From NCBI GenBank assembly GCA_029309925.1, contig JARKND010000001.1:2790001-2854000 (forward strand): a stretch of DNA of 64,000 nt. The letters run 5' to 3'. Positions 4,721 through 60,678 of the stretch are shown piece after piece. This DNA is from Fulvivirgaceae bacterium JP3-4 (lineage in GTDB: Bacteria > Bacteroidota > Bacteroidia > Cytophagales > Cyclobacteriaceae). Within the stretch, counting starts at the first letter, position 1, and every line of letters begins with the position of its first letter. The notes under the pieces are model-generated. The model was given only the letters and a program-made list of their open reading frames with translations. It did no database searches and was not told the DNA's origin. The position numbers and the translations under genes are program-made.

Positions 4721-6568
4721 ATGCGCCTGTTACTTTTACTAGTCTTTTTTTCGTTTGCAGGCTCTGCCTATGGCCAGCGAGATAAGCCCAGGATCGAAGA
4801 TCAACGCCCAGTTGCAACCGATGAAGATCAGGCAGTTACGATACGCCTCACTGATCTCATCGTTCGCGACCGCGATGATTGGTTCTATCCTTTTGGCTTC
4901 ACACTGACGGTCTATCCAGGTGAGAATTATTCTGTTAGCACACATACGATCACACCTGCAGCAAATTTCAATGGCACCTTGAAGGTGAAGGTCACCGTCA
5001 ATGATGGCGAGAACGACAGTGCGCCTTTTGACCTTAAGGTTGATGTTCGGCCAGTAAATGATCCTCCGGTAATCACAGGACAATCGCCTTTAAGCGCAAA
5101 ACAAAACGAGTCACTTACTCTTAAAACCGGTGACCTGACCATCACAGACCCGGATGATTCCAAATTCACATTGTCTGTTGCGACAGGCGCAAATTATTCA
5201 GTGTCGGGAACAACGGTCACACCTGCAGCCGGCTTCTCCGGCCAGCTCACGGTGCCGGTCACGGTCAGTGATGGAAAAGCGAATTCCGCACCTTTCAATG
5301 TCAAGATTGATATCATTCCCGTGAACGACATTCCTACCATCACAGGTCAGGTGCAACTTGCAACGGACGAAAACAAACCAATCACCATCGAGCTATCTCA
5401 CCTTACCGTTACTGACAAGGACAACCCATACCCTACCGGTTTTACGTTGCATATCGCTCCGCCTGCGAGCAACACTTACACGGTGAGCGGGAATACTGTT
5501 CAGCCAGCGCTGAACTTCGAAGGAACATTGTCAGTGCCCTTGCGTGTTAATGACGGAAAAGATTTTAGTCCGACATATAATTTACAGATCACGGTAAGAG
5601 CAGGCAATAACTCTCCTGTGATCACGGGACAATCTCCAGTAACGATCAAGGAAGACGAAGTCTTTGTGATGCAATTCTCCCATCTGTTTGTTTCTGATAC
5701 GGATAACACCTACCCCAACGGATTCACGCTGAAAATCGCCAATGGTGCAAACTATACTGTCTCAAATAATCAAATCACTCCTGCGCGCGACTTCACAGGC
5801 AGGCTGGTTGCCGCAGTGACTGTCAATGACGGCACGAGTGACAGTGCTCCGTTCAATTTTGAAATCAATGTCGGTGCTACGAATGACTCACCGCTCATCG
5901 CGTTAGAACCGGACGCGCTTATCTTTACGCCAGGCAAAGGTCCGGTGCTGATCAGTGAGAGTTTACAGATTACCGATGCAGAAAATGACTCCATCACGCA
6001 GGCAGAGGTTTCATTCCTCCCGCAGTTCTACACGCCAGGTTATGACGAATTGAAATATCAGGGTAGTGATCAGATCAGAAGCTCATTCGATCTGCAGCGC
6101 GGGATTTTGCTACTTACCGGCAAGGCTCCGCTCGCACAATATGTTCAGGCTATCAAAGCGATTCAGTACAACTTCGTTGCAGGGCCGGATTCGTTTATCG
6201 AAGGAAAGAAGTTTTCCGTCAAGGTGAGCGACAGGTTTTCAACGAGTGCTCCGGCAACGCGTGAGATCCGTACGAAGGCGCTTGACATCGACCTGGATAT
6301 TCCGTCAGGGTTTACCCCGAATGGTGATGCAGCAAACGATACGTGGGTTATCAAACCGTTAAAGGCAAGTGAAGAGCTTGCCCGCGCGGTTGTACGCGTT
6401 TACAACCGCCACGGAGTGTTGCTCTTTGAAGCCATAGGTTTTGAAAAAGAATGGGACGGCAAGCTGAATGGCGAATCCCTTCCATGCGATTCATATTTCT
6501 ACACAATCGATCTTGGCGATGGCTATATCAAGTCATCAATAAAAGGAATTGTGACAATCCTGCGCTAG
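4721..6568 (+). CDS. Exported cadherin-like repeat protein with gliding-motility (T9SS) C-terminal domain
   Basis: A 615-residue exported protein of unknown specific role. Residues 1-18 are a signal peptide (LLLLLVFFSFAGSAYG). About four tandem repeats of roughly 90 residues follow (about 25-390), each starting near ITGQ or IEDQ, containing an LTVTDKDNPYP-like acidic turn and a VTVNDGxxxSAPFN strand; they resemble tandem-95/cadherin-like adhesin domains. A different segment (about 395-530) leads to a C-terminal domain of about 85 residues with FTPNGDAANDTWVI, VYNRHGVLLFE and WDGKLNGESLPCDSYFY, the hallmark of gliding-motility-associated T9SS type B cargo. It is probably surface attached or secreted. 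Its stop overlaps the stop of the opposite-strand GH57 gene by four bases (CTAG). Confidence 0.85.
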   Translation: MRLLLLLVFFSFAGSAYGQRDKPRIEDQRPVATDEDQAVTIRLTDLIVRDRDDWFYPFGFTLTVYPGENYSVSTHTITPAANFNGTLKVKVTVNDGENDSAPFDLKVDVRPVNDPPVITGQSPLSAKQNESLTLKTGDLTITDPDDSKFTLSVATGANYSVSGTTVTPAAGFSGQLTVPVTVSDGKANSAPFNVKIDIIPVNDIPTITGQVQLATDENKPITIELSHLTVTDKDNPYPTGFTLHIAPPASNTYTVSGNTVQPALNFEGTLSVPLRVNDGKDFSPTYNLQITVRAGNNSPVITGQSPVTIKEDEVFVMQFSHLFVSDTDNTYPNGFTLKIANGANYTVSNNQITPARDFTGRLVAAVTVNDGTSDSAPFNFEINVGATNDSPLIALEPDALIFTPGKGPVLISESLQITDAENDSITQAEVSFLPQFYTPGYDELKYQGSDQIRSSFDLQRGILLLTGKAPLAQYVQAIKAIQYNFVAGPDSFIEGKKFSVKVSDRFSTSAPATREIRTKALDIDLDIPSGFTPNGDAANDTWVIKPLKASEELARAVVRVYNRHGVLLFEAIGFEKEWDGKLNGESLPCDSYFYTIDLGDGYIKSSIKGIVTILR

Positions 6569-8985
6569 GTCGCTGGCTGGCTGATCCCCATGTCCACCTT
6601 CACTCCGAGGTTATCACCGAGCAGGTTGAATTGAGTCTTCCATTCATCCGAACGTCCGTTGCTTTCGTGGATCTCTCTTGAGATCTCGAAGAACAGATTC
6701 TGGCTTTTATAGAGATTCGGGCGAAGGTTGAATTTAAACATGAGCGGGAACAAACGGTTCAGTCGCTCGATGCGCTTGAGACTCTCTCCCTCTGCAGCAA
6801 TTCGCTTGAGCTCCTTGAAAATACTTTCACCTGCAAAACGTTCCACCTTTCCGGGATCTTCGATGCGCAGATCCCAGTTTACAAGCTCGGTCATAATCCG
6901 CTCCACCTGGCGAATGTTGATCTTGTCGGTCTGGAAGCATTTGATCAGGTCGACATTGAGAATATATTCGAACGTGGTCTTGTATGCGTTTGGAATCGGG
7001 ATGCCATTATGATTCAACGCCATCACCAGCGGATAATCACGGTTGTAAATTCTGCGAAGTGAATCTTCCAGGTCGAGCATGCTCTGCTGTGTGATGAAAT
7101 TGAAAACTTTCCGCTTTTCATCCTGGAACAGCTGCCAGATGGTATACTTTTCAGGGCCGAAGTAGGTCTGCATCAAACCAATAATATCACCGAGCCTTCC
7201 TTCTTCAAAGGCTGTAGTCATCCGCACCTGCATGCTTGCAAATTTCTCCTCTTCCATATCAAGGGAAATGTTTCCGATGATATTATGCTTGCCCATGTAG
7301 ATTACCGCAAACGCAAATTTCTTTTCAGAGCGCGTTACATTTGATTTTACTTTCGTGACACCAAGGACGAGCTTCTGTTCTCCAGCCTCCTTCCGGATGA
7401 AAACTTCATTGGAAGTTGTGTAGTTGAATACCGGGAACGCATCCGGATCTTCTTCAAAGAGCGATGCCACGGCATAATGCATGCCCACACGCTGAAGGTT
7501 AATCTTAGAAGGAATGACATACTTCTGGTATACATTCGATGCATTTCCAAGGCCCGGAACATTGCTTGGGACTTCTTCAAGCCTTCTGCGGAACTCCACC
7601 TCGAGATTAGCTTCTGAACTCACCTGGCTTACCAGTTGCATCGCACGGCAGGCGTACTGCATGATCTGTGTTGTCTCGATGCCAGAAACTTCATCAAAAA
7701 ACCAACCACAGCTTGTATACATCAGCATGGCGTTGCGCTGTACCTCCAGCATGCGCAGCACGTGGTTTGGTTCAACATCCTTGATGCAATGATCGCGCAT
7801 GAATTTTTTGATACTGTCATCTGTGCGCTTGAGGATAACGTTGATGTACTCGTTTCGTGCTTCCCATGGATCGCGCAGGATGCCTGACATCTCCTCCTCG
7901 AAAATGCGCTCCAGCTTGTCGCGAAGCCAGTCGAGTGATTCCCTGAGAGGTTTTCTCCACTTCTGATTCCAGTTCGGTTTTCCTCCGGTATTGCATCCGC
8001 AATCATTTCTCCAGCGCTCCACTCCATGAGCGCAACTCCACGAGCTGTTCTCATGGATCTGCGCCTCATACGTTGGCGGATGCTTTGCAAGATACTGCGC
8101 GTAGTTTGTCAGGTTTGCGATCTTGTGCTTCTCGATATGGTCAAGACAAAACGCCAGCGCCATGTCGCCATGCTTGTGATGGTGGCCATAGGTTTCGCCA
8201 TCGGTCGCGATATGTGAGAGCTGAGGCTCAGGTGTTGTGTCAAAGTTCGCCAGCAAACGTTCGGCAAATTTCTTTCCGTCATTCAGAAGTCCATTGAAAG
8301 CAACGCCCTGTGATGTGTCACCGTCATAGAAAAACAAAACGATAGAATTACCGGATGGCAACTTATACAAATATGGTCTCCGTGTATCGATACCGGTCTG
8401 TTCAAGATCGTTCCACTCAGCAGCTCCGATCTTCCGAAAGCCTCTCGCCTGCCTGGGCGCAAGAATCGTAAACTTAATACCGTGCTTAACGAGCAGTTCG
8501 AGCGATTCTGTATCCACTGCAGTCTCCGCCAGCCACATGCCTTCCGGCTTTCGATTGAAGCGGTGTGAGAAATCGCGGATGCCCCAGATGATCTGTGTTT
8601 CCTTATCGCGTCTTGACGACAAAGGCATGATCATGTGGTTGTAAACCTGCGCGATAGCCGAACCATGACCTCCGAACTTTTCCATGCTCTCTTTGTCAGC
8701 ATCGAGGATCGCCTGATACGTTTCAGGGTCGTTCGTCTCCATCCACGACAAGAGTGTGGCTCCGAAGTTGAAACTTATGCGAGAGTAATTATTGATGATC
8801 TGTTTGATGACACCTTTACCATCGAGGATACGCGATGCAGTATTCGGACCATAGCACTCGGCTGTGATCCGTTCATTCCAATCATGGTAGGGGTGCGCAG
8901 AATCCTGGACTTCGATTACCTCAAGCCAGGCATTTTCACGGGGTGGCTGATAAAAGTGCCCGTGAATACAAATATACTTTTCCAA
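6565..8985 (-). CDS. Large GH57 family protein with DUF3536-type C-terminus
   Basis: An 806-residue cytoplasmic protein without signal peptide. The N-terminal ~300 residues are a GH57 barrel: CIHGHFYQPPRENAW at residues 5-19, the expected nucleophile Glu in EGMWLAETAVD and the expected acid Asp in HIATDGETYGHHH are intact, so hydrolase or transglycosylase activity on alpha-glucan is plausible. The remaining ~500 residues are mostly helical and resemble DUF3536. Its position downstream of glgB, treS-mak and glgE on the same strand supports a role in glycogen metabolism. The exact reaction is not known from sequence. It ends tail to tail with the T9SS gene, sharing four bases. Confidence 0.85.
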   Translation of the reverse strand: MEKYICIHGHFYQPPRENAWLEVIEVQDSAHPYHDWNERITAECYGPNTASRILDGKGVIKQIINNYSRISFNFGATLLSWMETNDPETYQAILDADKESMEKFGGHGSAIAQVYNHMIMPLSSRRDKETQIIWGIRDFSHRFNRKPEGMWLAETAVDTESLELLVKHGIKFTILAPRQARGFRKIGAAEWNDLEQTGIDTRRPYLYKLPSGNSIVLFFYDGDTSQGVAFNGLLNDGKKFAERLLANFDTTPEPQLSHIATDGETYGHHHKHGDMALAFCLDHIEKHKIANLTNYAQYLAKHPPTYEAQIHENSSWSCAHGVERWRNDCGCNTGGKPNWNQKWRKPLRESLDWLRDKLERIFEEEMSGILRDPWEARNEYINVILKRTDDSIKKFMRDHCIKDVEPNHVLRMLEVQRNAMLMYTSCGWFFDEVSGIETTQIMQYACRAMQLVSQVSSEANLEVEFRRRLEEVPSNVPGLGNASNVYQKYVIPSKINLQRVGMHYAVASLFEEDPDAFPVFNYTTSNEVFIRKEAGEQKLVLGVTKVKSNVTRSEKKFAFAVIYMGKHNIIGNISLDMEEEKFASMQVRMTTAFEEGRLGDIIGLMQTYFGPEKYTIWQLFQDEKRKVFNFITQQSMLDLEDSLRRIYNRDYPLVMALNHNGIPIPNAYKTTFEYILNVDLIKCFQTDKINIRQVERIMTELVNWDLRIEDPGKVERFAGESIFKELKRIAAEGESLKRIERLNRLFPLMFKFNLRPNLYKSQNLFFEISREIHESNGRSDEWKTQFNLLGDNLGVKVDMGISQPAT

Positions 8986-9098: not shown

Positions 9099-11090
9099 CT
9101 ACGTGCTGATATCTTCAAGCTCAAACTCACTGATCTCTTTCTCCAGCTTGAGGACAGTCATCGCCAAAGGAGGTAAAGTTAATGAAACTGAATAATCCTG
9201 TCCATGATACTTTACGGGCGAAGTTGCCAGCAGGCCACCATTGGAAACACCTCCTCCGCAATATTTTTTATGGTCAGTGTTAAAAACTTCTTTCCATTGA
9301 CCACGGTAAGGTACACCAATCCGATAATGGTAGCGAACTTCCGGTGTAAAATTGCATACCACGATCAATAAATCGTTCTTGTTTTCCCCTTTCCGCTGGA
9401 AGGCGATCACACTATTTTCACGGTCTCCATAGTCAATCCATTGGAAACCGCGCTGATCAAACGAATGTATATAAAGGGCGGGCTCGGACTTGTAAAGGGC
9501 ATTCAAATCCTTCACAAGGTCCTGCACACCTTTGTGGAATCCGTAATTCAATAAATCCCAGTCGAGGCTTCGTTCGTGGTTCCATTCCGCACTTTGTGCA
9601 ATTTCCCCACCCATGAACAACAGTTTTGTGCCGGGATGGGTAAACATGTATGCAAAAAGCAGTCTCAGGTTTGCGAATCTTCTCCACTCATCTCCCGGCA
9701 TACGTCCAAACAATGAACCCTTTCCGTGCACTACTTCGTCATGCGATAACGGAAGCATAAAGTTTTCCGTAAAGGCATACATGATGCTGAAGGTGATCTC
9801 ATTCTGGTGATATTTCCGGTGAACAGGATCGAGCTGGAAGTAGTGCAATGTATCGTGCATCCAGCCCATCATCCACTTCTGGCCGAATCCCAATCCGCCT
9901 AGGTAAGTCGGACGCGACACTCCCGACCATGAAGTTGATTCTTCTGCTATAGTAATGGCGTCCGGGAACATGGAATACACCACTTCATTCATTTCCTTGA
10001 GGAAGGAAATAGCCTCGAGATTTTCGTTTCCACCATACTGGTTTGGAATCCATTCCCCGTGCTTTCGTGAATAATCAAGATACAGCATTGATGCCACCGC
10101 ATCGACACGCAGACCATCAATGTGAAATTCCTCCAGCCAGTACACCGCGTTGCTGATCAGGAATGACCTCACTTCGTTTCTGCCGTAGTTGAAAATATAA
10201 CTCTTCCAGTCGGGGTGGAAGCCTTTGCGGGGATCTTCGTGCTCGAAGAGATATGTTCCATCAAATTTGAAAAGTCCGTGCGCGTCTCCGGGGAAGTGCG
10301 ATGGAACCCAGTCGAGGATTACGCCAATGCCCGCGCGATGAAAACAGTCGATCATGTACATGAAATCTTCCGGACTTCCGAATCTGCTTGTCGGAGCAAA
10401 GTACCCCGTCAGCTGATAACCCCAGGAGCCGTAGAACGGATGTTCCATCAGCGGAAGGAATTCAACGTGTGTGAATCCCATCTCCTTCACGTAAGGAACC
10501 AGTTCGTGCGCCATCTCAGGATAGGTCAGTGGCCTGCCGCCATCTTCTACCTTTCTTCTCCACGATCCGAAGTGCACTTCATAAACGGAATAAGGCTTAG
10601 GCTTGCCGATTGTTTTTTTGCGCTGATCGAGCCATTCCTGGTCTTTCCACTCATATCGCGGTTCCCAGACAATCGATGCAGTCTTGGGAGGTGTTTCGTT
10701 AAACACAGAGAACGGATCTGCCTTATCGAGTATTTCGCCCGTGTTTGAATGAATTACATATTTGTATGCTTCGCCATGTTTGATATCCGGAAAGAATCCT
10801 TCCCATATACCCGACTGATCCCAGCGCGCATGAAGATTGTGTTTCTCTCTCTGCCAGTAATTGAAATTACCGATGACAGACACTGCCTTCGCGTTCGGTG
10901 CCCACACTGCGAAGTAGGTTCCCTCCTGCCCGTTGTGCGTTACGATCCGCGACCCTAACTTTTCATGAAGCTTGTAGTGTTTTCCACTTTTGAAAAGATG
11001 GATGTCGTAGTCGGAAATGAGAGAGAAGCTCTCAAAGGTGGTTTCCGCTTTTACAATATTGGTTTGTTTCTTTGACATAGTCGTATACAT
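9099..11090 (-). CDS. glgB: 1,4-alpha-glucan branching enzyme
   Basis: Makes alpha-1,6 branches in glycogen. About 660 residues: an N-terminal CBM48 domain (about 40-135, [20 protein letters not shown]), a GH13 barrel and a C-terminal beta domain. All three catalytic acids are present: nucleophile Asp in [13 protein letters not shown], Glu in [12 protein letters not shown] and Asp in [12 protein letters not shown]. The YGGNEN and [12 protein letters not shown] segments are typical of GlgB. The start could be 11090 or the second ATG at 11078 (MSKKQ); neither has a clear ribosome site. It lies 99 bases downstream of the treS-mak stop, with a short-word repeat in the gap, and completes the GlgE route by branching the linear glucan. 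Confidence 0.96.
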
Positions 11091-11189: not shown

Positions 11190-14100
11190 TTATTTCCTTT
11201 TCTCGTCTTTCTGCTTCACATATCTCTTCACCAGGTAATCGATTCCGCGCAACGGGATAATTGTCCAGTCCGGACGGCCGTTGAGTTCGTAACCCAGCTC
11301 GTAGATCGCCTTTTCAATCAGGAAGGTACGGATAAGGATATCATTTTCTTCAGAAAGAATTGTTCCCATGCCAATTCGCTCCATATAAGCACCGAGATAA
11401 AAGCGGCTGACATAGTGCTGCCACTGTTCAGCAGCCTGCTCGAGCAATTCGAGCTCCTGCTCGCGATAGTTCTCATTGAGCAACAGTTTGCCAAAGGCCG
11501 CATAATGGAAGGAGCGCATCATTCCGGCAACATCCTTGAATGGATTTTTCTTCAGCCTGCGTTCGCTGAAAGAAAAGCCAGGTTCACCTTCAAAATCGAT
11601 GATTACGAAATCTTTTCCGGTGAACAGCACCTGCCCGAGGTGATAGTCACCGTGGATGCGCGTTTTGAGCGCGCTGATCTTTACTTGGTATACTTCACTG
11701 AATGATTCGAGGATGCTTTCTTCCATTGCAAGTACTTCTTTCGCCAGATTCTGCGTTTCAGGCGGAAGTTTTCCAATCGATGTCTCAAGGATGCTAAAGC
11801 GGTCGCGCAAAAGTTTTCTCAGTGATGAGTAGAGCGACCGTTGATAATTTGCAGTGAATGTTTCGGGCGAGAAAGCTGGGTTTGACGCATCTGATGCGAG
11901 TGCCATGTGCATTTCTGCAGTCCGCTGGCCCAAACGTACCACGCGCTCGTAGAAGCCTCGTCCGATGAGTTCCTGCAATAGTTCAGGAGCCTCTTCAAAT
12001 TTGATTGCCGGATTATTATTAAGCTTCGGAAACTTCAGTCCCTTTGCTTTTGTGATAACGCGCTCGTAGTAACGGCCGACCGAGTCAACAGTCATCCCCC
12101 ACGAATCGCCCTGGTTATCAACTTTCTCCTGCAGCAAGCCAAACACGATAGTTCTTCCTTCGGAATCCTTGTACTCAACGCTTCCGGCATACTTCGGACA
12201 ATTCTGGAACGTTGTATGTTCCGTGAGGAAACGAACAATCTCGAGATCGGGGTTAATCTCCTTCTCGATTTTTCTGTAGAATTTAAAGAAGTATTTATCG
12301 TTGTAAATGATGGCGGTATTGCTTTGATCTGCCTTCAGGATCTTCGAATCAACTTCTTTCGTATTCAGCTTGGCAAACACTCCGGAATTGAATTCGAGCG
12401 TACCGTTCTGATCATCGCGCAAACGCAATTCCTTGTCCATGCTGGTAAAAAGAAAATCACGGAAATTTTTGTCGTAACTGCTATCCATGATAAATCCCGC
12501 CTTGCCCTGAATTTCCGCACGGCATACAACACTCTGAACGGTATACTCCACTCTTTCGAGGATACTGTCAGATAAGACAAATGTCAATGGGAGAAAATAA
12601 AACTCTGGCAGGCGTTGAACATAATGCACCTCGATCATCGTGAGGAAATGGGTGTCTCCTTCGACCTTGAGAGGAATGACCTTATGGATCGCCATCTTGC
12701 TGACGACCTTTGCTTTTCCCCCAAACCAGCGACATTTTTTCATGAAGGGCGGAAGAAACTTTCTTTCGAACAGTCTTGCTTCGTTGTAATTGTCAAGCAA
12801 CCGCTCCCATGAGATGTCAGTGGTTAAAAGAGGAAGTTCACCACTCGCTTCCGCTTTCTCCTTTTTCTCGGCACTATCGACCTGGAACCAGAAATATCCG
12901 TATGGGCCGATGGTGATGTTGTATTCACCTTCTTCCACATTCATAAACCGGTTCTGGCTGAACACCTCAGTGATATCAGCATCCTTGTATTCTGAAAGGT
13001 TGAGTGTGGCTGCCTGCGAAAATTGTGAAAGGTTTGCTACAACAATGATCTGCTGGTTGTCAAGGCTACGGGCGAAAGCAAGCACTTTAGCATTTGAGCT
13101 TTCAATGAATTTGATGTCGCCACGGCCGAAAATATTCAGACGTTTGCGCATCGCGATCACGTTCTTCATCCACCAAAGCAGCGATGAAGGATTTTCTTCC
13201 TGCGTAGCTACGTTCACCGACTCGTGGCGGTAGATCGGATCGGATATGATCGGTAGAAACAACCGCTGCGGATTCGCATTTGAAAATCCGGCATTAATGT
13301 TCATGCTCCATTGCATTGGCGTACGCACACCGAAACGATCACCCAGGTATACGTTGTCTCCCATGCCGATCTCGTCACCATAGTACAGGACTGGTGAACC
13401 CGGCAGTGAAAGCAATATTGTATAAAGCAATTCAATTTTTCTCCGGTCGTTGTTCATCAGCGGTGCCAGGCGCCTGCGGATGCCGACATTGAACTTTGTG
13501 TTCTGATCATTCGCGTACGCTTTGAACAGATAATCTTTCTCCTCCTCCGTCACCATCTCCAATCCGAGCTCATCGTGGTTCCTGAGAAACAAGGCCCACT
13601 GACTGTTTGGAGGCGTTGTTGGCGTCTGGTCCATGATATCGACAATCGGGTAGCTGTCTTCCGTACGAAGCGCAAGGAACAACCGCGGCATCAGCGGGTA
13701 ATGAAAATTCATATGACACTCTTCCCCGTTGCCGAAGTATGTTGCGGCATCTTCAGGCCAGAGGTTTGCTTCTGCGATCAGAATCCGGTTCTTATAATTT
13801 TTGTCGATGTGTGCTCTCAGCTTTTTAAGGTATGCATGCGTCTGCGGAAGGTTTTCCGAACTGGTTCCCTCCTGCTCGAACAAAAATGTAACGGAAGGCA
13901 AACGAAATCCATCGACACCCATCTTGAGCCAGAAGTCAACGACTTTAATCATTTCGAGCTGCACTTCTGCGTTATCGAAATTCAATTCCGGCTGATGGCG
14001 GTAATAGCGATGCCAGAAGTACGCTTTCGCCTCGGGATCGTAGGTCCAGTTGGTAGATTCCGCGTCTGCAAAAATAACGCGGGCCTCTTTGTACTTCTCA

Positions 14101-14516
14101 GGTGTATCGCTCCACACATAAAAATCGCGGGAACGTGAACCTGACTTGGAGCGTTTCGCTTTCTTAAACCATGGGTGCTGATCGGAAGTATGGTTCAGAA
14201 TAAGTTCGGTGATTACACGAATTCCCCTCCGATGCGCCTCCTTCAAAAATTGTTTGAAGTCGGCCAGGGTTCCGTAGTCGGGATGCACATCGTAGTAGTC
14301 TGTGACATCGTAGCCGTCATCCTTAAGAGGCGAAGGGTAAAAAGGCAGAAGCCAGATGGTGTTAATGCCGAGGTCTTCCAGATAATCAAGTTTTTGGATG
14401 AGCCCGGGAAAATCTCCGATCCCATCTCCGTTGCTATCATAAAAAGCACGAACACTCAACTCATAGATTATCGCATCTTTAAACCAAAGCGGATCAGCAG
14501 CTTTTTGAACGCTCAT
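11190..14516 (-). CDS. treS: TreS-maltokinase fusion with substituted TreS nucleophile
   Basis: 1108 residues: a trehalose synthase-like GH13 domain (about 1-550) fused to maltokinase (about 570-1108). Known TreS-Mak fusions isomerise trehalose to maltose and phosphorylate it to maltose-1-phosphate for GlgE. In the GH13 half the first conserved region (ITELILNHTSDQHPWF), general acid Glu249 (LIAEANLWPED) and Asp315 (FLRNHDELG) are present, but where TreS has RLDAV this protein has RLPSV: Pro207 (codon 13896-13898) replaces the nucleophile Asp. The kinase half looks intact, with RWFGGKAKV, IHGDYHLGQVLF and IIDFEGEPGFSF. Isomerase activity is therefore doubtful while maltokinase activity is expected. 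The start overlaps the glgE stop by one base (TAATG), indicating translational coupling. Confidence 0.93.
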   Translation of the reverse strand: MSVQKAADPLWFKDAIIYELSVRAFYDSNGDGIGDFPGLIQKLDYLEDLGINTIWLLPFYPSPLKDDGYDVTDYYDVHPDYGTLADFKQFLKEAHRRGIRVITELILNHTSDQHPWFKKAKRSKSGSRSRDFYVWSDTPEKYKEARVIFADAESTNWTYDPEAKAYFWHRYYRHQPELNFDNAEVQLEMIKVVDFWLKMGVDGFRLPSVTFLFEQEGTSSENLPQTHAYLKKLRAHIDKNYKNRILIAEANLWPEDAATYFGNGEECHMNFHYPLMPRLFLALRTEDSYPIVDIMDQTPTTPPNSQWALFLRNHDELGLEMVTEEEKDYLFKAYANDQNTKFNVGIRRRLAPLMNNDRRKIELLYTILLSLPGSPVLYYGDEIGMGDNVYLGDRFGVRTPMQWSMNINAGFSNANPQRLFLPIISDPIYRHESVNVATQEENPSSLLWWMKNVIAMRKRLNIFGRGDIKFIESSNAKVLAFARSLDNQQIIVVANLSQFSQAATLNLSEYKDADITEVFSQNRFMNVEEGEYNITIGPYGYFWFQVDSAEKKEKAEASGELPLLTTDISWERLLDNYNEARLFERKFLPPFMKKCRWFGGKAKVVSKMAIHKVIPLKVEGDTHFLTMIEVHYVQRLPEFYFLPLTFVLSDSILERVEYTVQSVVCRAEIQGKAGFIMDSSYDKNFRDFLFTSMDKELRLRDDQNGTLEFNSGVFAKLNTKEVDSKILKADQSNTAIIYNDKYFFKFYRKIEKEINPDLEIVRFLTEHTTFQNCPKYAGSVEYKDSEGRTIVFGLLQEKVDNQGDSWGMTVDSVGRYYERVITKAKGLKFPKLNNNPAIKFEEAPELLQELIGRGFYERVVRLGQRTAEMHMALASDASNPAFSPETFTANYQRSLYSSLRKLLRDRFSILETSIGKLPPETQNLAKEVLAMEESILESFSEVYQVKISALKTRIHGDYHLGQVLFTGKDFVIIDFEGEPGFSFSERRLKKNPFKDVAGMMRSFHYAAFGKLLLNENYREQELELLEQAAEQWQHYVSRFYLGAYMERIGMGTILSEENDILIRTFLIEKAIYELGYELNGRPDWTIIPLRGIDYLVKRYVKQKDEKRK

Positions 14517-16462
14517 TACATATTTGATTCGTGGACTTCTAATTTAAACAAATGGAAAGGCATTTTGTATGGATCGATCTCCACATAATTCCACTCCTGC
14601 GTCCACGTATAATGCTCATCCGTCATCAGGTCATGCAATTTCAGATTAATCCTATCGCCAAGTTTTAATCTTTCCCGCGGTATCTGCACATAGCCGGAAT
14701 GCCTGTGGTGCGGATCAAGGTTTACCACCACCAGCATGATGCTTGACAGGTCAGGAGTCGCCTTAATGTAGGCAAGCATATTCTGATCTTCGATCTGGCA
14801 GAACTGTATGTTCCAGGTCGACTGTAATGCAGCATGCTCCTTGCGTGCGCGATTAAGAATGGTGATAATATCTGTTAGTCGATTCGTTTTCTTCCAGTCG
14901 TGTTTTTTGATCTCATACTTTTCGGAATCCCAATACTCTTCTTTACCTGGCATCGGAACATTGTCGAGGAATTCGTAAGCCGGCCCGTACAGACCGTAGC
15001 TCGATGACAAGGTTGCTGCGAGCGCTACGCGGATCAGGAAGATATTTTCACCCTGATGTTGCAGATGGTATGGAAGGATGTCAGGCGTGTTGGGCCAGAA
15101 ATTCGGACGGAAGTAATTTTTGGATTGCGTGTAGACCAGCTCGTTCACATATTCTGTGAGCTCCTGCTTGGTAACGCGCCAGGTGAAGTAAGTATAAGAT
15201 TGTGTGAATCCTACTTTCGCGAGCGATGCCATCACCTTCGGCCGCGTGAAGGCCTCAGAGAGAAAGATAATGTCTTCATGCTTTTTGTTTACTTCAGCAA
15301 TCACCCAATGCCAGAACTTGATAGGCTTGGTGTGCGGGTTGTCAACGCGGAAGACTTTCACGCCCTGCTCGATCCAGTATAAAAATACGGAGAGCAATTC
15401 TTCCCATAGTCCTTTCCAGTCTTCCGATTCAAAATTGAAGGGATAGATATCCTGGTATTTCTTTGGCGGATTCTCAGCATACTGGATGGTTCCGTCAGGG
15501 CGCTGCTTAAACCAATTCGGATGTTCATTCACATAAGGATGATCCGGAGCACATTGGAACGCAACATCCATGGCAATGTCAATGTTGAACTTTTTCGCTT
15601 CCGCGATCAGCTTCTTGTAGTCGTCAAGCGTTCCGAGTTCGGGAAGGATGGCCTTGTGCCCCCCTTCATCACTTCCGATCGCCCATGGAGAGCCGGGTTC
15701 ACCGGGGAGTGCACGAACGTTGTTATTTTTTCCTTTGCGATTTATTTTTCCGATCGGGTGAATGGGCGGCATGTACAGAATGTCGAAGCCCATTGCATGG
15801 ATCCGCGGAAGTAGTTTGATAACATCCTTGAATGTACCGTGCTTTCCCTCCAGCGAGGCAGAACGGGGGAACAATTCATACCACGAACTGAAATTTGCCT
15901 TGCGATGCTCAACTACAACACTAAGCTCCTTCTCGTAAATCGTTTCAAAGTCGATCAGCGGATGATTGTGAACGATGTCATAAAATTCCGGGCTGAGGAC
16001 GAATTCAATTGCGTTAGCTTGCTGTTTATCCTGAAGTCTCGTTATCGCGGACTTAAGTGACTTATCTTCTTTTGCGAGGCGCTCCAGCATGATGACACCT
16101 TCCATAAGCTCCACCGTCACATCTACCTTTGCGTTGGCTTTTTTCTTAAAGCCGTCATACCACGTATCAAAATGGTCGACCCATGCTTTCACCGTAAAAA
16201 CATATGTACCTTTTTCCTTAACAGGAAAGCTTGCAAACCAGCCGTCATTATAGCTCGCTTTCATCTCGACAACTGACCATGATGACGCACCTTCTTTTTT
16301 GTAGAGAAGATGTGCGCGAATGTGATCATGACCGTCACCAAATATGTCCGCAGATACGTTGATGAAATCGCCTACCGTGCCTTTGGCGGGATAAAGGCCG
16401 CCATCAACCTGGGGCTGGACGTTCTCTATTACTACTCTTGATTGACCACGAAGAGAATTCAT
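14516..16462 (-). CDS. glgE: Alpha-1,4-glucan:maltose-1-phosphate maltosyltransferase
   Basis: Transfers maltosyl units from maltose-1-phosphate to the end of alpha-glucan chains. The 648 residues hold the N-terminal beta domain of GlgE (about 10-120, VIENVQPQVDGGLYPAKGTV), a helical insert and a GH13 barrel. The catalytic residues can be placed: nucleophile Asp374 (VFRVDNPHTKPIKFW), acid/base Glu403 (FLSEAFTRPKVM) and Asp461 (NTPDILPYHLQ). The EFLDNVPMPGKEEYWDSEKY segment is also typical. The gene is followed by treS-mak with a one-base overlap and preceded by two amylase lipoprotein genes. Its substrate would come from the maltokinase half of the neighbour. Confidence 0.95.
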   Translation of the reverse strand: MNSLRGQSRVVIENVQPQVDGGLYPAKGTVGDFINVSADIFGDGHDHIRAHLLYKKEGASSWSVVEMKASYNDGWFASFPVKEKGTYVFTVKAWVDHFDTWYDGFKKKANAKVDVTVELMEGVIMLERLAKEDKSLKSAITRLQDKQQANAIEFVLSPEFYDIVHNHPLIDFETIYEKELSVVVEHRKANFSSWYELFPRSASLEGKHGTFKDVIKLLPRIHAMGFDILYMPPIHPIGKINRKGKNNNVRALPGEPGSPWAIGSDEGGHKAILPELGTLDDYKKLIAEAKKFNIDIAMDVAFQCAPDHPYVNEHPNWFKQRPDGTIQYAENPPKKYQDIYPFNFESEDWKGLWEELLSVFLYWIEQGVKVFRVDNPHTKPIKFWHWVIAEVNKKHEDIIFLSEAFTRPKVMASLAKVGFTQSYTYFTWRVTKQELTEYVNELVYTQSKNYFRPNFWPNTPDILPYHLQHQGENIFLIRVALAATLSSSYGLYGPAYEFLDNVPMPGKEEYWDSEKYEIKKHDWKKTNRLTDIITILNRARKEHAALQSTWNIQFCQIEDQNMLAYIKATPDLSSIMLVVVNLDPHHRHSGYVQIPRERLKLGDRINLKLHDLMTDEHYTWTQEWNYVEIDPYKMPFHLFKLEVHESNM

Positions 16463-16466
16463 TCTT

Positions 16467-18059
16467 TTAATTCTTTTTAATTATAACTGTACTATACGCA
16501 GGCAGCCTCAACTCGCCATCTTCCAGCGCTACTTTACCGCCAGCGGTATCAAAATCCAGATTACTGAATGTGCTTAGGGAATCGGGCATTGCCACGGTCA
16601 CCTCAACATCTGACACATTATGCAACACCAGCACTTCCTCACCTTCATGTTTTCTGATGAAAGAAACGATCTCATCATATTTTATACCCGCACTTTCGAT
16701 GTCGCCATAGGTAAGGGCATCACTGCTGTTGCGGTATTGAATCAACCGTTTATAAAAGTTGTAGAGCGACTCGTTGTCGGACTGCTGCTTGTTGAAAGGC
16801 ACCACTGTCTTATCAGTGCTGTACTGCGGAACTTCCCAGGACGTCTGCATCTTTTCAACCTTGCCCTCGTTCCAGATGAACGGCTCCCGCACAAAGGCGT
16901 CCGGCCCGAACTGATCGGCATACTGACTCAGCTTATCTCCTACCATGCCGATCTCTTCACCATAATAGATGTAAGGCGTTCCCGGCATTGTGAGCAGCAT
17001 AGCGGCAGTCATCTTTGCTTTATCAACATCACCCTTCAACTCGCTGAGTATCCGGGTCTGGTCATGATTTTTCACGAACGTTGCATCGAGGTAGTCGCTG
17101 GTGATGGATTTGTAAAAGTCACGAATGTCTTTGTATCGCTGAACGATATTGATCGTATCCTTGCCTGCACGGGCTACATCCGTGATCGCATATCCGAGAT
17201 CAAAATTAAAAAGCGATGGCAAGCCCTTCAGGTACGGAGCAACTGTCTTTGAGTCTGCCCACACTTCGCCCACGAGATAAACATCAGGCTTGATGGTTTC
17301 CATTTCTTTTTTGAACCACACCCAGAAGTTATGATTGTCTTCAGCGCGCTCATCCGGAAACACGTGGCGCGCGGCATCCATCCGGAAACCGTCCACTTTC
17401 ATTTCGTTGAGCCAGAACTTGGCAATGTCGACAATTTCCTCTTTGACTTTCGGATTGTCGAGATTCAGGTCCGGACAGAGTCCGTTAAAATATCCGTAGT
17501 AGTGTTCCGCCAGTGTGTCGCCATTCACGGGATGCCACTTGCGGATGTTGTCTGAGTCAAACGACTTTGCTTTTTTGAACAGCTGACCGCGGATGGAATC
17601 CTTCTTTGCCCATACATAGTAATCCCGGTAAGGACTGTCTTTGCTTTTCTGCGCATCGAGAAACCATGGATGCATGTTGCCGGTGTGGTTGATGACGAAG
17701 TCGGTGATGATGCGGATGTCGCGCTTGTGAGCTTCTTCCACGAATGTCTTAAAATCGTCAATCGTGCCGTAGTCGGGATCGATGTTCCGGTAATCGGTAA
17801 CGTGATATTTGTGATAAGTATCTGACGGCATGATCGGCATCAGCCACAGACCGTTGACACCGAGATCCTTGAAGTAATCCAGTTTGGCGGTGAGTCCTTT
17901 GAAGTCACCTTTGCCGTTGCCATCGCCATCCGCGAATGACATAACAAACACTTCATATTTCACACCGTAGGGCCACTTGACTTTCGACTTTTCTTCTCCG
18001 GTAGTGCAACCAAGGAGCAGAATGGAAAGAAAGATAGCGGTGAGTTTACTCTGTTTCAT
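16467..18059 (-). CDS. GH13 alpha-amylase family lipoprotein
   Basis: A 530-residue GH13 enzyme predicted to be anchored in the outer or inner membrane. The start at 18059 is preferred over a longer frame to 18107 because it gives a clean lipoprotein signal (MKQSKLTAIFLSILLLGC, Cys18). The catalytic set is complete: Asp in VDGFRMDAARHVF, Glu in VYLVGEVWAD and Asp in FVKNHDQTRIL. MVGDKLSQYADQFG and the C-terminal beta domain fit alpha-amylase or oligo-glucosidase types acting outside the cytoplasm. It lies four bases upstream of glgE, so probably in one transcript, an unusual pairing of an exported amylase with cytoplasmic glucan synthesis. No SusC/SusD pair is adjacent. Confidence 0.88.
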   Translation of the reverse strand: MKQSKLTAIFLSILLLGCTTGEEKSKVKWPYGVKYEVFVMSFADGDGNGKGDFKGLTAKLDYFKDLGVNGLWLMPIMPSDTYHKYHVTDYRNIDPDYGTIDDFKTFVEEAHKRDIRIITDFVINHTGNMHPWFLDAQKSKDSPYRDYYVWAKKDSIRGQLFKKAKSFDSDNIRKWHPVNGDTLAEHYYGYFNGLCPDLNLDNPKVKEEIVDIAKFWLNEMKVDGFRMDAARHVFPDERAEDNHNFWVWFKKEMETIKPDVYLVGEVWADSKTVAPYLKGLPSLFNFDLGYAITDVARAGKDTINIVQRYKDIRDFYKSITSDYLDATFVKNHDQTRILSELKGDVDKAKMTAAMLLTMPGTPYIYYGEEIGMVGDKLSQYADQFGPDAFVREPFIWNEGKVEKMQTSWEVPQYSTDKTVVPFNKQQSDNESLYNFYKRLIQYRNSSDALTYGDIESAGIKYDEIVSFIRKHEGEEVLVLHNVSDVEVTVAMPDSLSTFSNLDFDTAGGKVALEDGELRLPAYSTVIIKKN

Positions 18060-18125
18060 AATTCGAATCGTTAAAACAATACCAGTGCGAAGGGCACCGG
18101 CATTCATTTATCCAAGGCAGTATAA

Positions 18126-19943
18126 CTATTTGATTTTAAAAATAAAGCAACTGTAAGGTTTCACCCGAAGGTTAAAGGTTAAGTTTTTGTCAAATCCCAC
18201 TTCCACTTCTCTCCACAGCAGGTCACGGGCGATATAAGTTTCATTCTTGTCAAGCCCCATCGCAACGCCAACCGTTTCAGGAATATTTACCTTTATCTCC
18301 TGATCCTTATCATTGAAGGTTGTAACGATGAGCAGTTTTTCTCCTTCATGATGACGGACAACAGCGTGCACACGCTCATCAAAATTACCGTTGGCAATAT
18401 TATGGTCTGTGATGTCAATGTATTCGCCCTGGGTGAGCGCTGGATTTTTTCCGGCAAGGTTCAGAAGGTCGATGTAGAACTGACGGAGCTGACGCTGTTC
18501 CGGATTCAATCCGCCTCCGTCAAACTTTCCACCATTCATCCATTTCTGATGCTCGGGCACACCCCAGTAATCAAAGATCGTTGTGCGACCATCATCGCCC
18601 TGGAATCCTTCAGCGCCTGCGCCTGGTTCTCCGACTTCTTGACCAAAATAAATCATCACTGCACCACGATCGATTGTAGCACTCAGCACCATCGCTGGGC
18701 AGCCTTTCCAGATGTCGCCTGCAAAAAACTTTGACGCAAGCCTTTGCTCATCGTGGTTCTCCAGAAAGTGCAGCATGTTGTGGCTCACATCTTTAAGGCG
18801 CTTCTGCACGGCAACGATGTCAGAACTTTTGCGGTCGTTGTTCATCAGAAACCTCAGCGTGTCATACAACAGCACTTTGTCGTAGAGGTAATCGAATCTT
18901 CCGTTGCGTATGTAATTTGTGTACTGATCAGGATTATAGATCTCAGCGATGAACGTGATTTCAGGATTGACATCCTTCACCTGCGGAATCACCCAATTCC
19001 AGAATTCGACCGGAACCATTTCAGCCATATCACAGCGGAATCCGTCAACTTTCTTGTTCGCCCAAAACACGAGAATGTCGCGCATTTTATTCCAGGTGTC
19101 AGGGACGGGATCGAAATAGGTTTTGCGGCCGTTCTGAATATCTACACCATAGTTCAGCTTCACTGCTTCGAACCACTCGTTAACGCCAGGGCTGGCGGTA
19201 AACTGGTCGTTCCCTGTAACTTTCGCGGGTGTCTCCTCGAACTTTCCGTCTTTTGTTGGAAATGAGTTATTGCCAAGCGAGTTATAACCACGTGGCACCT
19301 GGAACGATTCCCCCGGGAGATAGTAAAAATTGTTATTCGGCTTGAAGGAAACCGACTTATCATCATTAGCGCCAAAGTCGACTATACCTTCCGGTTTTGC
19401 GTCTGATTTATAGGCGCGGGCAACGTGGTTCGGGACAAAATCAATGATCACCTTAAGTCCGGCTCCGTGGGTTCTGTCTATCAACTGCTCGAATTCCTTC
19501 ATCCGGTCGGGCACGCTCACGGCAAGGTCGGGGTTGACGTCATAATAGTCTTTGATCGAATAAGGCGAACCAGCTCGTCCTTTCACAACATCTGCATCAT
19601 CAAGCGGGATTCCATATTGGGTATAATCTGTTAGAACAGCGTGCTCAAGAACACCGGTGTACCATACATGCGTAGTTCCCAGTTCCCTGATTCCGCGAAG
19701 TGCGATCGCATCTATGTCATTGAATTTTCCGACACCGTTTTCATCACGCGTACCAAATTGCTTGTTCGTTGTGCTCTTGTTTCCGAACAACCGCGTCATC
19801 ATTTGATAGATGATTATTTTACCAGGTGATTTTTCCATCGTTTCAACAGGCGGGATTTGTTCTTTCGGTGCCGAACAGCTTATAACAAAAATGATAAGCC
19901 ATGAGTAAATAAAAACCTTCTGCATGAATGAATATAGTTTCAA
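18126..19943 (-). CDS. GH13 alpha-amylase family lipoprotein
   Basis: A 605-residue secreted GH13 enzyme. The N-terminus is a lipoprotein signal (FIYSWLIIFVISC, Cys near residue 23); translation may instead begin at the internal ATG at 19925. The catalytic residues are present: Asp in VDGFRCDMAEMVP, Glu in ITFIAEIYNPDQY and Asp in FLENHDEQRLASKF. KIIIYQMMTRLFGNKS and ENGVGKFNDID near the N-terminus place it in the subgroup of Bacteroidota periplasmic alpha-amylases. It precedes the other amylase by 66 bases and is the likely first gene of the unit running through glgE and treS-mak to glgB. Exact product specificity cannot be read from the sequence. Confidence 0.87.
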   Translation of the reverse strand: MKLYSFMQKVFIYSWLIIFVISCSAPKEQIPPVETMEKSPGKIIIYQMMTRLFGNKSTTNKQFGTRDENGVGKFNDIDAIALRGIRELGTTHVWYTGVLEHAVLTDYTQYGIPLDDADVVKGRAGSPYSIKDYYDVNPDLAVSVPDRMKEFEQLIDRTHGAGLKVIIDFVPNHVARAYKSDAKPEGIVDFGANDDKSVSFKPNNNFYYLPGESFQVPRGYNSLGNNSFPTKDGKFEETPAKVTGNDQFTASPGVNEWFEAVKLNYGVDIQNGRKTYFDPVPDTWNKMRDILVFWANKKVDGFRCDMAEMVPVEFWNWVIPQVKDVNPEITFIAEIYNPDQYTNYIRNGRFDYLYDKVLLYDTLRFLMNNDRKSSDIVAVQKRLKDVSHNMLHFLENHDEQRLASKFFAGDIWKGCPAMVLSATIDRGAVMIYFGQEVGEPGAGAEGFQGDDGRTTIFDYWGVPEHQKWMNGGKFDGGGLNPEQRQLRQFYIDLLNLAGKNPALTQGEYIDITDHNIANGNFDERVHAVVRHHEGEKLLIVTTFNDKDQEIKVNIPETVGVAMGLDKNETYIARDLLWREVEVGFDKNLTFNLRVKPYSCFIFKIK

Positions 19944-23763: not shown

Positions 23764-26700
23764 TTATTTATTGCTCAATTTCGCGCCTCCGAAATAAAAC
23801 AGATTCTTGTCTCCGGCTTTATCATTCTTAAATACGAAGTACAGATCATGAACGCCCTGAACCTGCTTGAATGAAACCTTTTCCGAATTCATGTTTGGCT
23901 TGTCAAGCTTTGCGGTACCAAGCAGTTCGCCATCGGGTTTATCCAGCCGGACCTCAACACTGCCAGTCACCGAATCTCCAGGTCTTACAAACGCCATTAC
24001 ACTAACACTCTTCACACCGGTAAGATCAAGTTCCTTGTATGCAGCCCATGCATTGTGTTTTACATTGTCAAGTCCGGCCTGTCCGTTGAAGCGAAGTACG
24101 CGCGCTACATTTAATTGGCTTGCCTGATCTGCACCAAGGGTCGGGCCGCGTAACACTGCAGCGCCCTGGGCAGGGATAGATGGAACGTTCTCGCCACCCT
24201 TATCGAAATAACTTGCGGTGAGAATGTAAGCGCCATCCTCTTCTTTGCCTGGCGTAACGGTCGACACCAGCGGAAGCGACTTGTCAGTTTTTACCTGGTT
24301 GAGTGACAGAATGTAGTCAACCATTTTCTTCGCATCATCAACAGAGATCTGCGGATGCGCTGCCATTTCAGTTGTGCCCCATACGCCTGCACCGCCTTTG
24401 ATAATTTTTGCAGCGAGGTAATCGGTCGCGTCTTTCTGCTTCTCATATTTCGCTGCAACCTCTTTATAGCTTGGGCCCGCTGAACGCTGATCGATCAGGT
24501 GGCAAGACTTACAGTCGCTGTTGTCAATGAGCGCTTTGCCGGGAAGCTCTATGGTTGGCATTTGGTGACCCTGCGCTATCGCAGTCATATCAAAGCCTTT
24601 CAGGTAGTTGAATGTCACCTTCACATCCGATGCGGTGATCTTTCCATTTTCACTTGACCCGTCTTCTTTATCTGTTACGGTTACCTTGTATCCTACCGGA
24701 GCGCCAGGGAAGTAGAACGTTTTGTTCCCGCTCGTAAATTCAACTTTGACAGTTGGCTGTTCATTTCCTGCGATGATCTGAAGTTTCGCAGAATTGGAAC
24801 CTCCGTTCTTATCGGTAATTTTTAACTCAGGAGTATACACTCCTGCTTTGTCGAAGGTGACGGTGAAGGTGCCATCATTGGAAGTTTCCGTTTTTCCGTT
24901 GGCGATCAGTTCGTATTTCAATGCATCGCCATCAGGGTCCTGACTTCCTTCAGCTGTGAACTTGACAGTGAGCGGAACAGCTCCGTAAAACTTGTCGGCA
25001 GTGAGCATTGCAACGGGTGGTCTGTTGCCTCCGTTGTAATCGATCCGGACGAGACGCGCGTCAATGTTCTTCGCGAACCATTTTGTGCCATACTCGAGCA
25101 TGTACAATTTACCGTCAGGACCGTAAGCCATGTCCATGATATTGTTGAACTTTGTGCCCGCCATAAACGGTTCGATGTCCTTGATCGCACCGTCTTTATC
25201 GAGCGTCAGCAGGAACATGAAGTTCCGCATCCAGTCATAGATCATTACCTTACCATCGAAGTAGTCTGGGAATGCGCCTTCCATGCCTTTGTAATCTTCG
25301 CTGTAATAAATCGGCCCGGCCATAGCGTTGCGCCCGCCTTCCTTCATCATCGGGAAGTCATCATTCTTTGCATAGGGGTACCAGATGAACGCGTCAGATA
25401 CAGGAGGAAGCTCGCGCTTACCCGTGTTGTTTGGTGAGTCGTTGATCGGTGCTTTCGGATCCCACTTTGCCGAAACTTTCTTGCCTGCAAAATCATACTT
25501 CCCGTAAGCATAGTTGTTTCCAACGAAGTAAGGCCACCCGAAGAAGCCGGCCTTCTTTGCCTGGTTAAGCTCGTCATATCCGCGAGGGCCGCGAAGTGAA
25601 TCGTTGTTACCCGCGTCAGGCCCGACTTCACCCCAATAGAGATAGCCGGTTTTCTGATCGATCGAAATTCTGTAAGGGTTGCGATTTCCCATCACATAAA
25701 TTTCAGGCCTTGTCTTCTCCTCTCCTTTCGGGAACAGATTTCCTTCCGGGATGGTGTATGTTCCATCAGGTTCGGGATGAATGCGAAGAATTTTTCCACG
25801 CAAGTCGTTCGTATTGGCAGAAGATTTCTGCGCATCGAATGGAGAACGACCCGGACGCTCATCAGAAGGACTGAAACCGTCAGACTCAAAAGGACTGGTG
25901 TTATCGCCCGTGGAGATGAACAAATTCCCACCAGGACCAAACGCAAGCGACCCGCCTGTGTGGCAGCACGTCTCCCGTTGTGTCGGCACCTCAAGCATCT
26001 CCTTTTCGGAGCTCATGTCAATCTTGTCATCCTTAAATACAAACCGAGAAAGCACGTTTGCAGAACGCTCCGGATGTGAGTAAAAAATGTACAGGTAGTT
26101 ATTGTCTTTGAAGTTTGGATCGGAAGTGAGACCGATTACACCGTCTTCGAATTTCGTCCCTACTTTGAATGTGTTGATCACCTTCGTCTTATTATCCGAT
26201 GGCGTGTAAAGTTTCACATCACCTTTGCGCTCAACAAAAATAATCTTCCCGTCAGGGAGAATTGTCATCTCTGTCGGCTCGTCCAGATTAAAATCGAGAA
26301 CCGTTTTAGTAAATCGGTTTTCTTCAGGGATGCGCTTTGAAGTAGCCTTGCCATAGTCGAGCTTGTTGTCGCCCATAGCCCACTCGATGCCTTGCAGAAC
26401 ATGGTCAAGGAAAAGTGAATCCTTATAACTCTCCTTTGTATGTCCGAGACCCGTATAAAAAGACCTTCCGCCTTCAAATTCCTGGTACCACGCGATCGGA
26501 TGATTGTTGCCATTCTCGCCTCCCTGGTAAGAACTTTCCTCCAGGTTATAAATAACATTGATCTTGTCTGAAATCTTTTTATAGTTATACCACTCATCCG
26601 TTCGTGTCCATGTGTCGGGCAATGTGTTCGGACCGAAGGGGCGCACCTTCGTCAACTTTGCTTCCTGAATTTTCGGATGGCTCTTAAAATAAGCACCGAG

Positions 26701-27069: not shown

Positions 27070-27085
27070 TGGTTGTAAAAAGAAA

Positions 27086-27108
27086 ATCCTGACCCAACAG
27101 GTCAGGAT
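27086..27108 (-). terminator. Rho-independent terminator after the 27115-30810 gene
   Basis: ATCCTGACC (27086-27094) and GGTCAGGAT (27100-27108) form a perfect 9-bp stem with a 5-base loop. On the minus strand it is followed by TTTCTTTTT. It separates the 27115-30810 transcript from the 1101-residue lipoprotein gene downstream, which must then have its own promoter or depend on read-through. Confidence 0.85.
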
Positions 27109-27114
27109 AGTTAG

Positions 27115-30810: not shown

Positions 30811-30830
30811 AAAATGGTAAATGGAACTAT

Positions 30831-45665: not shown

Positions 45666-45728
45666 TTTTGAAAAACTTTTCTGGTTGAGTATACAGTCCG
45701 CGGTTTTGTCCGCCAATCAATAAAGTTC

Positions 45729-60675: not shown

Positions 60676-60678
60676 TTT

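Follow-up and report, generated by a model that had tools for sequence, protein, structure and literature searches.

A window of 64,000 nucleotides from Fulvivirgaceae bacterium JP3-4 (GenBank assembly GCA_029309925.1, contig JARKND010000001.1, positions 2,790,001 to 2,854,000) encodes on its minus strand, at 11190..14516, a fusion of trehalose synthase (TreS) and maltokinase (Mak) whose glycoside hydrolase family 13 (GH13) half lacks the catalytic nucleophile. Comparison with relatives indicates that the nucleophile Asp was lost in a single clade of such fusions, that both halves have stayed under purifying selection, that the -1 sugar pocket was kept while the +1 subsite changed, and that the gene sits in an operon with glgE. 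The GH13 half is likely a pseudoenzyme. With moderate confidence we favour a role in which this pseudo-TreS domain retains a sugar pocket and serves a maltokinase that feeds GlgE without trehalose; we infer the inactivity, the ligand binding, the regulation and the source of maltose in this proposal. The clade is real and conserved and, as far as a literature search of partial coverage reached, undescribed; that search found no description of a natural nucleophile-less TreS.

The open reading frame has 1108 codons and zero internal stops, with the GH13 half at residues ~10-546 and the maltokinase half at ~570-1108. Retaining GH13 chemistry uses an Asp as nucleophile. At this site the window protein has Pro207, encoded by CCT (13896..13898, minus strand, read at 13898-13896; context GVDGFRLPSVTFLFE), and alignment places it opposite Asp in the TreS sequences of PDB entries 5x7u, 5h2t and 4lxf. 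A sequence-only reading of the stretch had claimed Pro at the nucleophile position, together with conserved Glu249 and Asp315 in an intact frame, and it was right on each point: the acid/base Glu (LIAEANLWPED) and the transition-state Asp (FLRNHDELG) are both retained. Two further changes on which that reading was silent accompany Pro207, namely Y211F and T318G. Phe211 (codon 13884..13886, minus strand) stands for the +1-subsite Tyr213 of Deinococcus radiodurans TreS (DrTS), and Gly318 has its codon at 13563..13565 (minus strand). The window protein thus has the family match, fold, acid/base and transition-state residues of a TreS and lacks the nucleophile Asp of the GFRLD motif; of the +1 residues Tyr213, Glu320 and Glu324 (DrTS numbering) it keeps the two Glu, as Glu316 and Glu320.

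The GH13 half scores 834.1 bits against the NCBIfam TreS model TIGR02456 (curated cut-off 678.35) and the kinase half 443.3 bits against the maltokinase model TIGR02457 (cut-off 375.05). Since both halves exceed the cut-offs, an annotation pipeline based on these models would label the protein trehalose synthase, and trehalose metabolism may consequently be over-predicted in these bacteria. The maltokinase motifs HGDxHxxQ, DFEGEP and QSNT, which we take to be the functional kinase motifs, are all present, and kinase activity is predicted from them and the family match. The GH13 half is a conserved homologue that selection has maintained despite the loss of a required catalytic residue, as expected of a pseudoenzyme with presumed inactivity.

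Among 138 TreS-like rows, a count in which genomes present in two collections appear twice, 55 have Asp at this column and 83 have another residue (P 28, S 22, A 19, T 10, G 3, N 1). A deduplicated set with at least 1000 aligned query columns held 125 rows: 74 without Asp (61 of Cyclobacteriaceae type and 13 of Saprospiraceae type), 50 with Asp, and an outgroup (L003). In this set column 207 is Asp in 50/50 intact rows and never Asp in the 74 others. The contention that a single read error is unlikely is likewise upheld by the 83 rows, which include several named isolates, sequenced separately. The only support for a sequencing error or a decaying pseudogene was the unexpected residue itself; error, frameshift and pseudogene are ruled out by the 83 of 138 rows, the full-length frames and an omega (ratio of nonsynonymous to synonymous substitution rates) of ~0.02, and we give this explanation practically no weight.

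Within the Bacteroidota, the clade spans Cyclobacteriaceae-type Cytophagales as well as Saprospiraceae and Phaeodactylibacter. Carriers without Asp among the best 80 of 473 relatives included Chryseosolibacter histidini, Chryseosolibacter indicus, Chryseolinea serpens, Parachryseolinea silvisoli, Dawidia soli, Chryseotalea sanaruensis and a Fulvivirga metagenome-assembled genome (MAG); in the same scan Phaeodactylibacter luteus and Saprospiraceae MAGs had T, S or N at column 207. Two other genomes of the same genus as JP3-4 each hold nucleophile-less and intact copies. Of 98 genomes of the family, 26 have a TreS-Mak at E<=1e-200, and 11 carry a copy that shares 66% identity or more with the window protein; all of these copies lack the Asp. 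At the level of the order 83 of 390 genomes had a hit at E<=1e-250. Close copies (identity of 72% or higher) were restricted to genomes of the same family, and the 18 more distant loci that were read all have Asp, the remaining distant matches lying outside this count. A match was found in 99 of 395 genomes of the phylum, where 26/26 newly read loci have Asp (other distant matches again lie outside the count). For the class, 395 genomes sampled around Phaeodactylibacter yielded matches at E<=1e-250 in 11 genomes and at 12 places: four of these places lack Asp, all of them already in the set, and eight have it.

The FastTree phylogeny and the tree of the GH13 half were built without the trait columns (207-211 and 318). 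In a FastTree phylogeny of the 125 rows all 74 non-Asp rows form one clade with support 1.0, and quick IQ-TREE analyses of the GH13 half (47 chosen rows) and of the kinase half (45 rows) give the same split, with SH-aLRT (Shimodaira-Hasegawa-like approximate likelihood ratio test) values of 99 each. The nucleophile-less rows thus appear to share one origin. Two independent losses of Asp, one in the Cyclobacteriaceae type and one in the Saprospiraceae type, are unsupported, since in both half-trees a single branch separates all non-Asp rows from the rest; gene transfer between the two lineages is compatible with the half-trees and may have occurred.

By parsimony, column 207 has undergone at least 21 changes inside the clade on the large tree and 11 on the small tree, always among A, P, S, G, T and N. 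Asp is found in 0/74 rows and Pro in 23/74. Under a simple single-step model, which is rough and ignores branch lengths, the chance that 11/11 changes stay within these six residues is ~0.001-0.004. In the 61 Cyclobacteriaceae-type rows column 207 ranks within the top 7% of GH13 columns by variability, although of 224 columns that are invariant in intact enzymes 136 have remained so there. The sequence-only reading had counted at least two base changes from GAT/GAC to CCT. A single base turns GAY (Asp) into GCY (Ala), however, and A, P, S and T can be reached within NCN. Because this first step is a single base and the codon is NCN in 69/74 clade rows, a two-hit event is unnecessary.

Purifying selection is indicated for the GH13 half as well as for the kinase half, from omega estimates that rest on few pairs. 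In the GH13 half the median omega of five Cyclobacteriaceae-type pairs with dS (synonymous divergence) <1.2 is 0.020, and in the kinase half it is 0.022. The corresponding values are 0.059 and 0.048 for three Saprospiraceae-type pairs and 0.054 and 0.128 for six intact pairs. Over all pairs the slope of GH13 against kinase divergence is 0.765 in the Cyclobacteriaceae type and 0.743 in the Saprospiraceae type, compared with 0.425 in intact fusions. Measured against the kinase half, the GH13 half is therefore under weaker constraint than its counterpart in intact fusions, yet far from neutral.

Residue roles in the pocket were taken from the D. radiodurans TreS paper (PMC4257617), with columns mapped by motif so that DrTS Asp63 corresponds to D66. 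At the -1 glucose site D66, H109, H314, D315 and R394 are kept in 74/74 clade rows and R205 in 73/74, and the acid/base E249 is kept in 71/74. Loci L079, L093 and L108 have Asp at the Glu249 column, and in L108 Lys also replaces the Arg that lies two positions ahead of the nucleophile site. The +1 side has changed: the equivalent of Tyr213 is Phe in 69/74 rows, that of Glu324 is other than Glu in 27/74 and that of Ile150 other than Ile in 41/74, and the gate residue Arg148 is lost in 13/13 Saprospiraceae-type rows. Column 318, which is Thr in 50/50 intact rows, is G, A or M in 72/74. Ala mutants of DrTS Tyr213, Glu320 and Glu324 are reported to be inactive (PMC4257617); the change at the +1 Tyr seen here, to Phe, differs from the published mutant. 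In the kinase half of the clade H955, H959 and D974 are kept in 74/74 rows and D957 in 73/74.

An ordinary trehalose synthase, with a replacement carboxylate supplied from elsewhere in the chain, would explain the high score to the TreS equivalog model. However, of the GH13 columns at which intact rows and Cyclobacteriaceae-type rows are each fixed for another residue, only two, E177 and E324, show an acidic gain, and both are already Asp in the intact rows. The Phe at the +1 Tyr also argues against this explanation, the DrTS Tyr213Ala mutant being reported inactive (PMC4257617), as does the finding that 27 of the 32 genomes without an intact TreS have neither OtsA nor TreZ to supply trehalose. 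We regard it as very improbable.

Nucleophile mutants of glycosidases, when rescued, can work with an outside nucleophile. By analogy, water or phosphate might attack from the beta face in the window protein and make it an inverting hydrolase or phosphorylase. The kept Glu249 (71/74), the nearly invariant -1 pocket and the small residue at 207 are in line with this chemistry, and the window holds a GH65 gene and a beta-phosphoglucomutase-like HAD gene (by eye) through which beta-glucose 1-phosphate may be handled. Against it, the residue at 207 varies among P, A, S, G, T and N (Pro in 23/74), which is unlike a selected catalytic residue; E249D occurs in three rows, Y211F has appeared, and no new phosphate-binding residue was identified. 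Such chemistry seems improbable, if less so than a replaced carboxylate.

A purely structural scaffold, in which the GH13 half folds, oligomerises and docks the kinase while any pocket ligand is irrelevant, would be consistent with the drift of the +1 and gate residues and with the relatively faster evolution of the GH13 half in the clade. It also finds a parallel in Mycobacterium smegmatis, where the maltokinase Pep2 is described as docking on the C-terminal domain of TreS with its ATP site near the interface (PMC6509496). The -1 residues, however, are kept in 71-74 of 74 rows despite the change at +1, and residue 207 has stayed small through at least 21 changes, an indication that selection acts on the pocket itself. 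We therefore consider a scaffold without a ligand rather unlikely, and prefer a pseudo-TreS domain whose pocket still holds a sugar.

The AlphaFold model of the window protein, made from 62 rows, has a mean pLDDT (predicted local distance difference test) of 81.5 and a pTM (predicted template modelling score) of 0.55, and in a Foldseek search of the PDB ranks 1-28 are all TreS entries. Segments 313-318, 336-349 and 379-434 are of low confidence. We rejected the idea that these mark a disordered, decaying gate, because a Pontibacter relative of the intact Asp type, modelled with the same 62 rows, has matching gaps (317-320, 342-351 and 383-441); the shared gaps reflect a limit of the alignment and are uninformative about the active-site lids.

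The 5.8 Mb genome of the window also carries an intact TreS-Mak (L002, C1:657336-660620, motif RLDAVPYLFE), 50% identical to the window protein and located outside the glgE operon. A single-domain TreS-like GH13 (L003, G000:C5:942508-944109; L003:1492-3108) has the nucleophile Asp (RVDAAELL) and scores 564.5 bits, below the TreS cut-off of 678.35; places in genomes G464, G467 and G491 score like it against the same query. TreY and TreZ lie side by side in the window (58030-62547, minus strand) and exceed their NCBIfam cut-offs, and OtsA, MalQ and GlgE are also encoded in the genome. The sequence-only reading had held that GlgE must receive its maltose from elsewhere than TreS. This statement consequently fails in this genome, which has the intact TreS-Mak, TreY/TreZ, OtsA and MalQ; it may hold for 28 relatives.

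These relatives emerged from a gene survey of 50 genomes with the nucleophile-less gene (38 of Cyclobacteriaceae type, including that of the window, and 12 of Saprospiraceae type) and of 15 Asp-only genomes of the family. The 50 were chosen from a longer list, mostly omitting loci on short contigs. An intact TreS-Mak is additionally present in 10 of the 38 Cyclobacteriaceae-type genomes, and the nucleophile-less copy is alone in 28. TreZ and MalQ each occur in 10/10 genomes with the intact copy vs 0/28 without it, OtsA in 7/10 vs 4/28, and the GlgE N/S domain in 10/10 vs 26/28. In the Saprospiraceae type an Asp TreS is found in 8/12 genomes, two of these being single-domain, with OtsA in 8/8 of them and in 1/4 of the others; the totals for this type are TreZ 0/12, GlgE 11/12 and MalQ 1/12. 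The Asp-only genomes have TreZ in 11/15, OtsA in 15/15, MalQ in 15/15 and GlgE in 10/15. Taken together, OtsA or TreZ is present in 18/18 genomes with intact TreS vs 5/32 without (Fisher p ~2e-9, kinship ignored although related genomes are non-independent). Trehalose-making genes thus appear to be absent from most relatives that lack an intact TreS, and the nucleophile-less gene probably stands alone mostly where trehalose is not made by the OtsA and TreZ routes.

Full-length GlgA was not found at the threshold used in the 38 Cyclobacteriaceae-type genomes; PF08323 hits are present in 37/38, in open frames of 269-336 aa. GlgA was accordingly rejected as an alternative polymer maker, these GT5 frames being too short for a whole enzyme. 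The GT5 (PF08323) glycogen synthase hit of the window genome lies at G000:C5:184481-185146.

The closest known systems are the TreS-Mak fusions of Pseudomonas aeruginosa (PA2152) and Estrella lausannensis, which share domain order and HMM (hidden Markov model) families with the window protein; P. aeruginosa moreover has a cluster of glgE, treS/pep2 and glgB like that of the window. Both activities have been measured in these fusions (for E. lausannensis, PMC7935935), whereas the clade described here lacks the GH13 nucleophile and the +1 Tyr. Maltose 1-phosphate is described as arising from trehalose through TreS-Pep2/Mak, from ADP-glucose through GlgC-GlgM, and through a MalQ bypass in P. aeruginosa (PMC11046441). 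This bypass is reported as trehalose-independent, combining MalQ with the kinase of TreS/Pep2, the TreS domain being slow (PMC8084333).

In the TreS:Pep2 complex of M. smegmatis and M. tuberculosis (PDB 5JY7) a TreS barrel likewise docks a maltokinase; there the proteins are separate and TreS is active, whereas the window type is fused and naturally nucleophile-less. The active sites of the M. smegmatis complex are reported to lie ~53 A apart with no apparent tunnel, and TreS is reported to raise the activity of M. tuberculosis Pep2 (PMC6509496). The sequence-only reading had seen in the GH13 half a pseudoenzyme kept as scaffold, substrate channel or regulator for the maltokinase. A scaffold or regulator fits the missing nucleophile, the intact kinase motifs and the conservation over many genomes; a channel is unlikely by analogy, because of the separation without a tunnel. 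The clade would offer a natural test of the non-catalytic role of TreS for maltokinase, a question left by a structure that appears to exclude channelling.

An engineered counterpart exists in M. tuberculosis TreS-D238A (PDB 8UQV), described as catalytically inactive and as binding a trehalose analogue with loop movement (PMC11019547). Its Asp-to-Ala change is the natural state in 18 of the 61 Cyclobacteriaceae-type rows, and the clade looks like it in retaining a sugar pocket minus the covalent step, to judge from the residues; D238A is, however, a laboratory mutant without the +1 changes, and the clade a natural lineage with them. Among GH13-like pseudoenzymes, the 4F2hc heavy chains of heteromeric amino acid transporters act as non-catalytic partners. 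These animal membrane proteins lack most of the active site, in contrast to the clade, which keeps the -1 pocket nearly complete.

In the operon of the window, GlgE maltosyltransferase (14516..16462, minus strand) precedes the fusion, its stop overlapping the start of the latter by one base (TAATG). Asp374 and Glu403 of GlgE, presumably its catalytic residues, are kept in 105/105 aligned rows, the window included. Downstream of the fusion follow the branching enzyme GlgB (9099..11090, minus strand) and a GH57/DUF3536 protein (6565..8985, minus strand) with the motifs HGHFY and ETYGHH. Upstream of GlgE are a SusG-like GH13 amylase (16467..18107, minus strand), present in only part of the related loci, and a second GH13 amylase (18126..19943, minus strand), present in most; both have a lipoprotein-like start by eye. 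Of 52 Cyclobacteriaceae-type loci, 48 have GlgE within 400 nt upstream, 48 have GlgB within 600 nt downstream and 36 have GH57 within 700 nt after GlgB; contig ends account for 4/4 loci without GlgB and for 1/4 without GlgE (L068). The order GlgE-TreSMak-GlgB is also that of 15/15 Asp-type loci of the same set, so the nucleophile-less gene sits in the usual slot and the intact paralogue of the window genome elsewhere.

The operon GH57 is 45-48% identical to the GH57 adjoining TreY/TreZ in Pontibacter loci, and the latter is probably the counterpart of PoGH57, judging from its placement and two published motifs. PoGH57 is reported to be hydrolytic with 4-alpha-glucanotransferase activity and carries HGHFY and ETYGHH (PMC11206854).

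In the role we favour, the gene would be an old paralogous form of TreS-Mak whose isomerase, deprived of its nucleophile, has ceased to be a trehalose synthase, and whose maltokinase half would still supply the adjacent GlgE with maltose 1-phosphate. The GH13 half would be kept because it folds, docks the kinase and holds a glucosyl end, of maltose or of an alpha-glucan chain, in the -1 pocket; through the held end the kinase may be stimulated, gated or retained on the glucan. Maltose would come from breakdown or disproportionation of alpha-glucan, or from the intact TreS-Mak paralogue where present, and trehalose would not be used through this protein. Candidate sources are glucan hydrolysis or disproportionation by the operon GH57 or the amylases; this route is favoured because MalQ was not found in the 28 genomes, on which ground it was rejected as a general maltose source. 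The clade would then point to a branch of the GlgE pathway that may have dropped trehalose yet kept the body of the trehalose enzyme. A tentative extension, which we hold to be less probable than the role itself, is that the GH13 barrel is a sugar-sensing domain: maltose or a glucan end in the old -1 pocket would switch maltose 1-phosphate synthesis on or off, so that a pathway once fed by trehalose gauges its own glucan. More boldly still, the small residue at 207 might admit phosphate and give an inverting phosphorylase.

Several observations weigh against the favoured role. The faster relative divergence of the GH13 half can be read as partial relaxation, and the pocket is not wholly invariant, E249 being Asp in 3/74 rows and R205 Lys in 1/74. 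GlgE lies within 400 nt in only 2/13 Saprospiraceae-type loci. M. smegmatis Pep2 is reported not to be stimulated by TreS (PMC6509496), and PoGH57 is reported to yield more chains of DP3-DP4 (degree of polymerisation 3 to 4), maltose not being among the products reported in the excerpt (PMC11206854). MalQ, on which the published bypass depends, was found in 0/28 Cyclobacteriaceae-type genomes with the nucleophile-less copy only. Of these 28 single-copy genomes 27 are MAGs by title and most are of 2.8-4.8 Mb, compared with 4.0-8.4 Mb for the 10 with both copies, so some gene absences may be assembly gaps or general genome reduction; three MAGs with the intact copy (G479, G495 and G497) do have TreZ and MalQ. 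Finally, Chryseotalea sanaruensis (L074, G487), the sole named isolate of the 28, has OtsA, as do three others.

Elsewhere in the window, at 43374-46382 (minus strand), a GH65 gene (Pfam) adjoins the HAD gene that by eye resembles beta-phosphoglucomutase, and the two are perhaps a pair for phosphorolysis of maltose or trehalose. A cluster of large proteins (23764-31547, minus strand) has ThuA, glucose/sorbosone dehydrogenase, cytochrome c, PA14 and 3-keto-disaccharide hydrolase domains, and a GMC oxidoreductase is encoded at 53198-54901.

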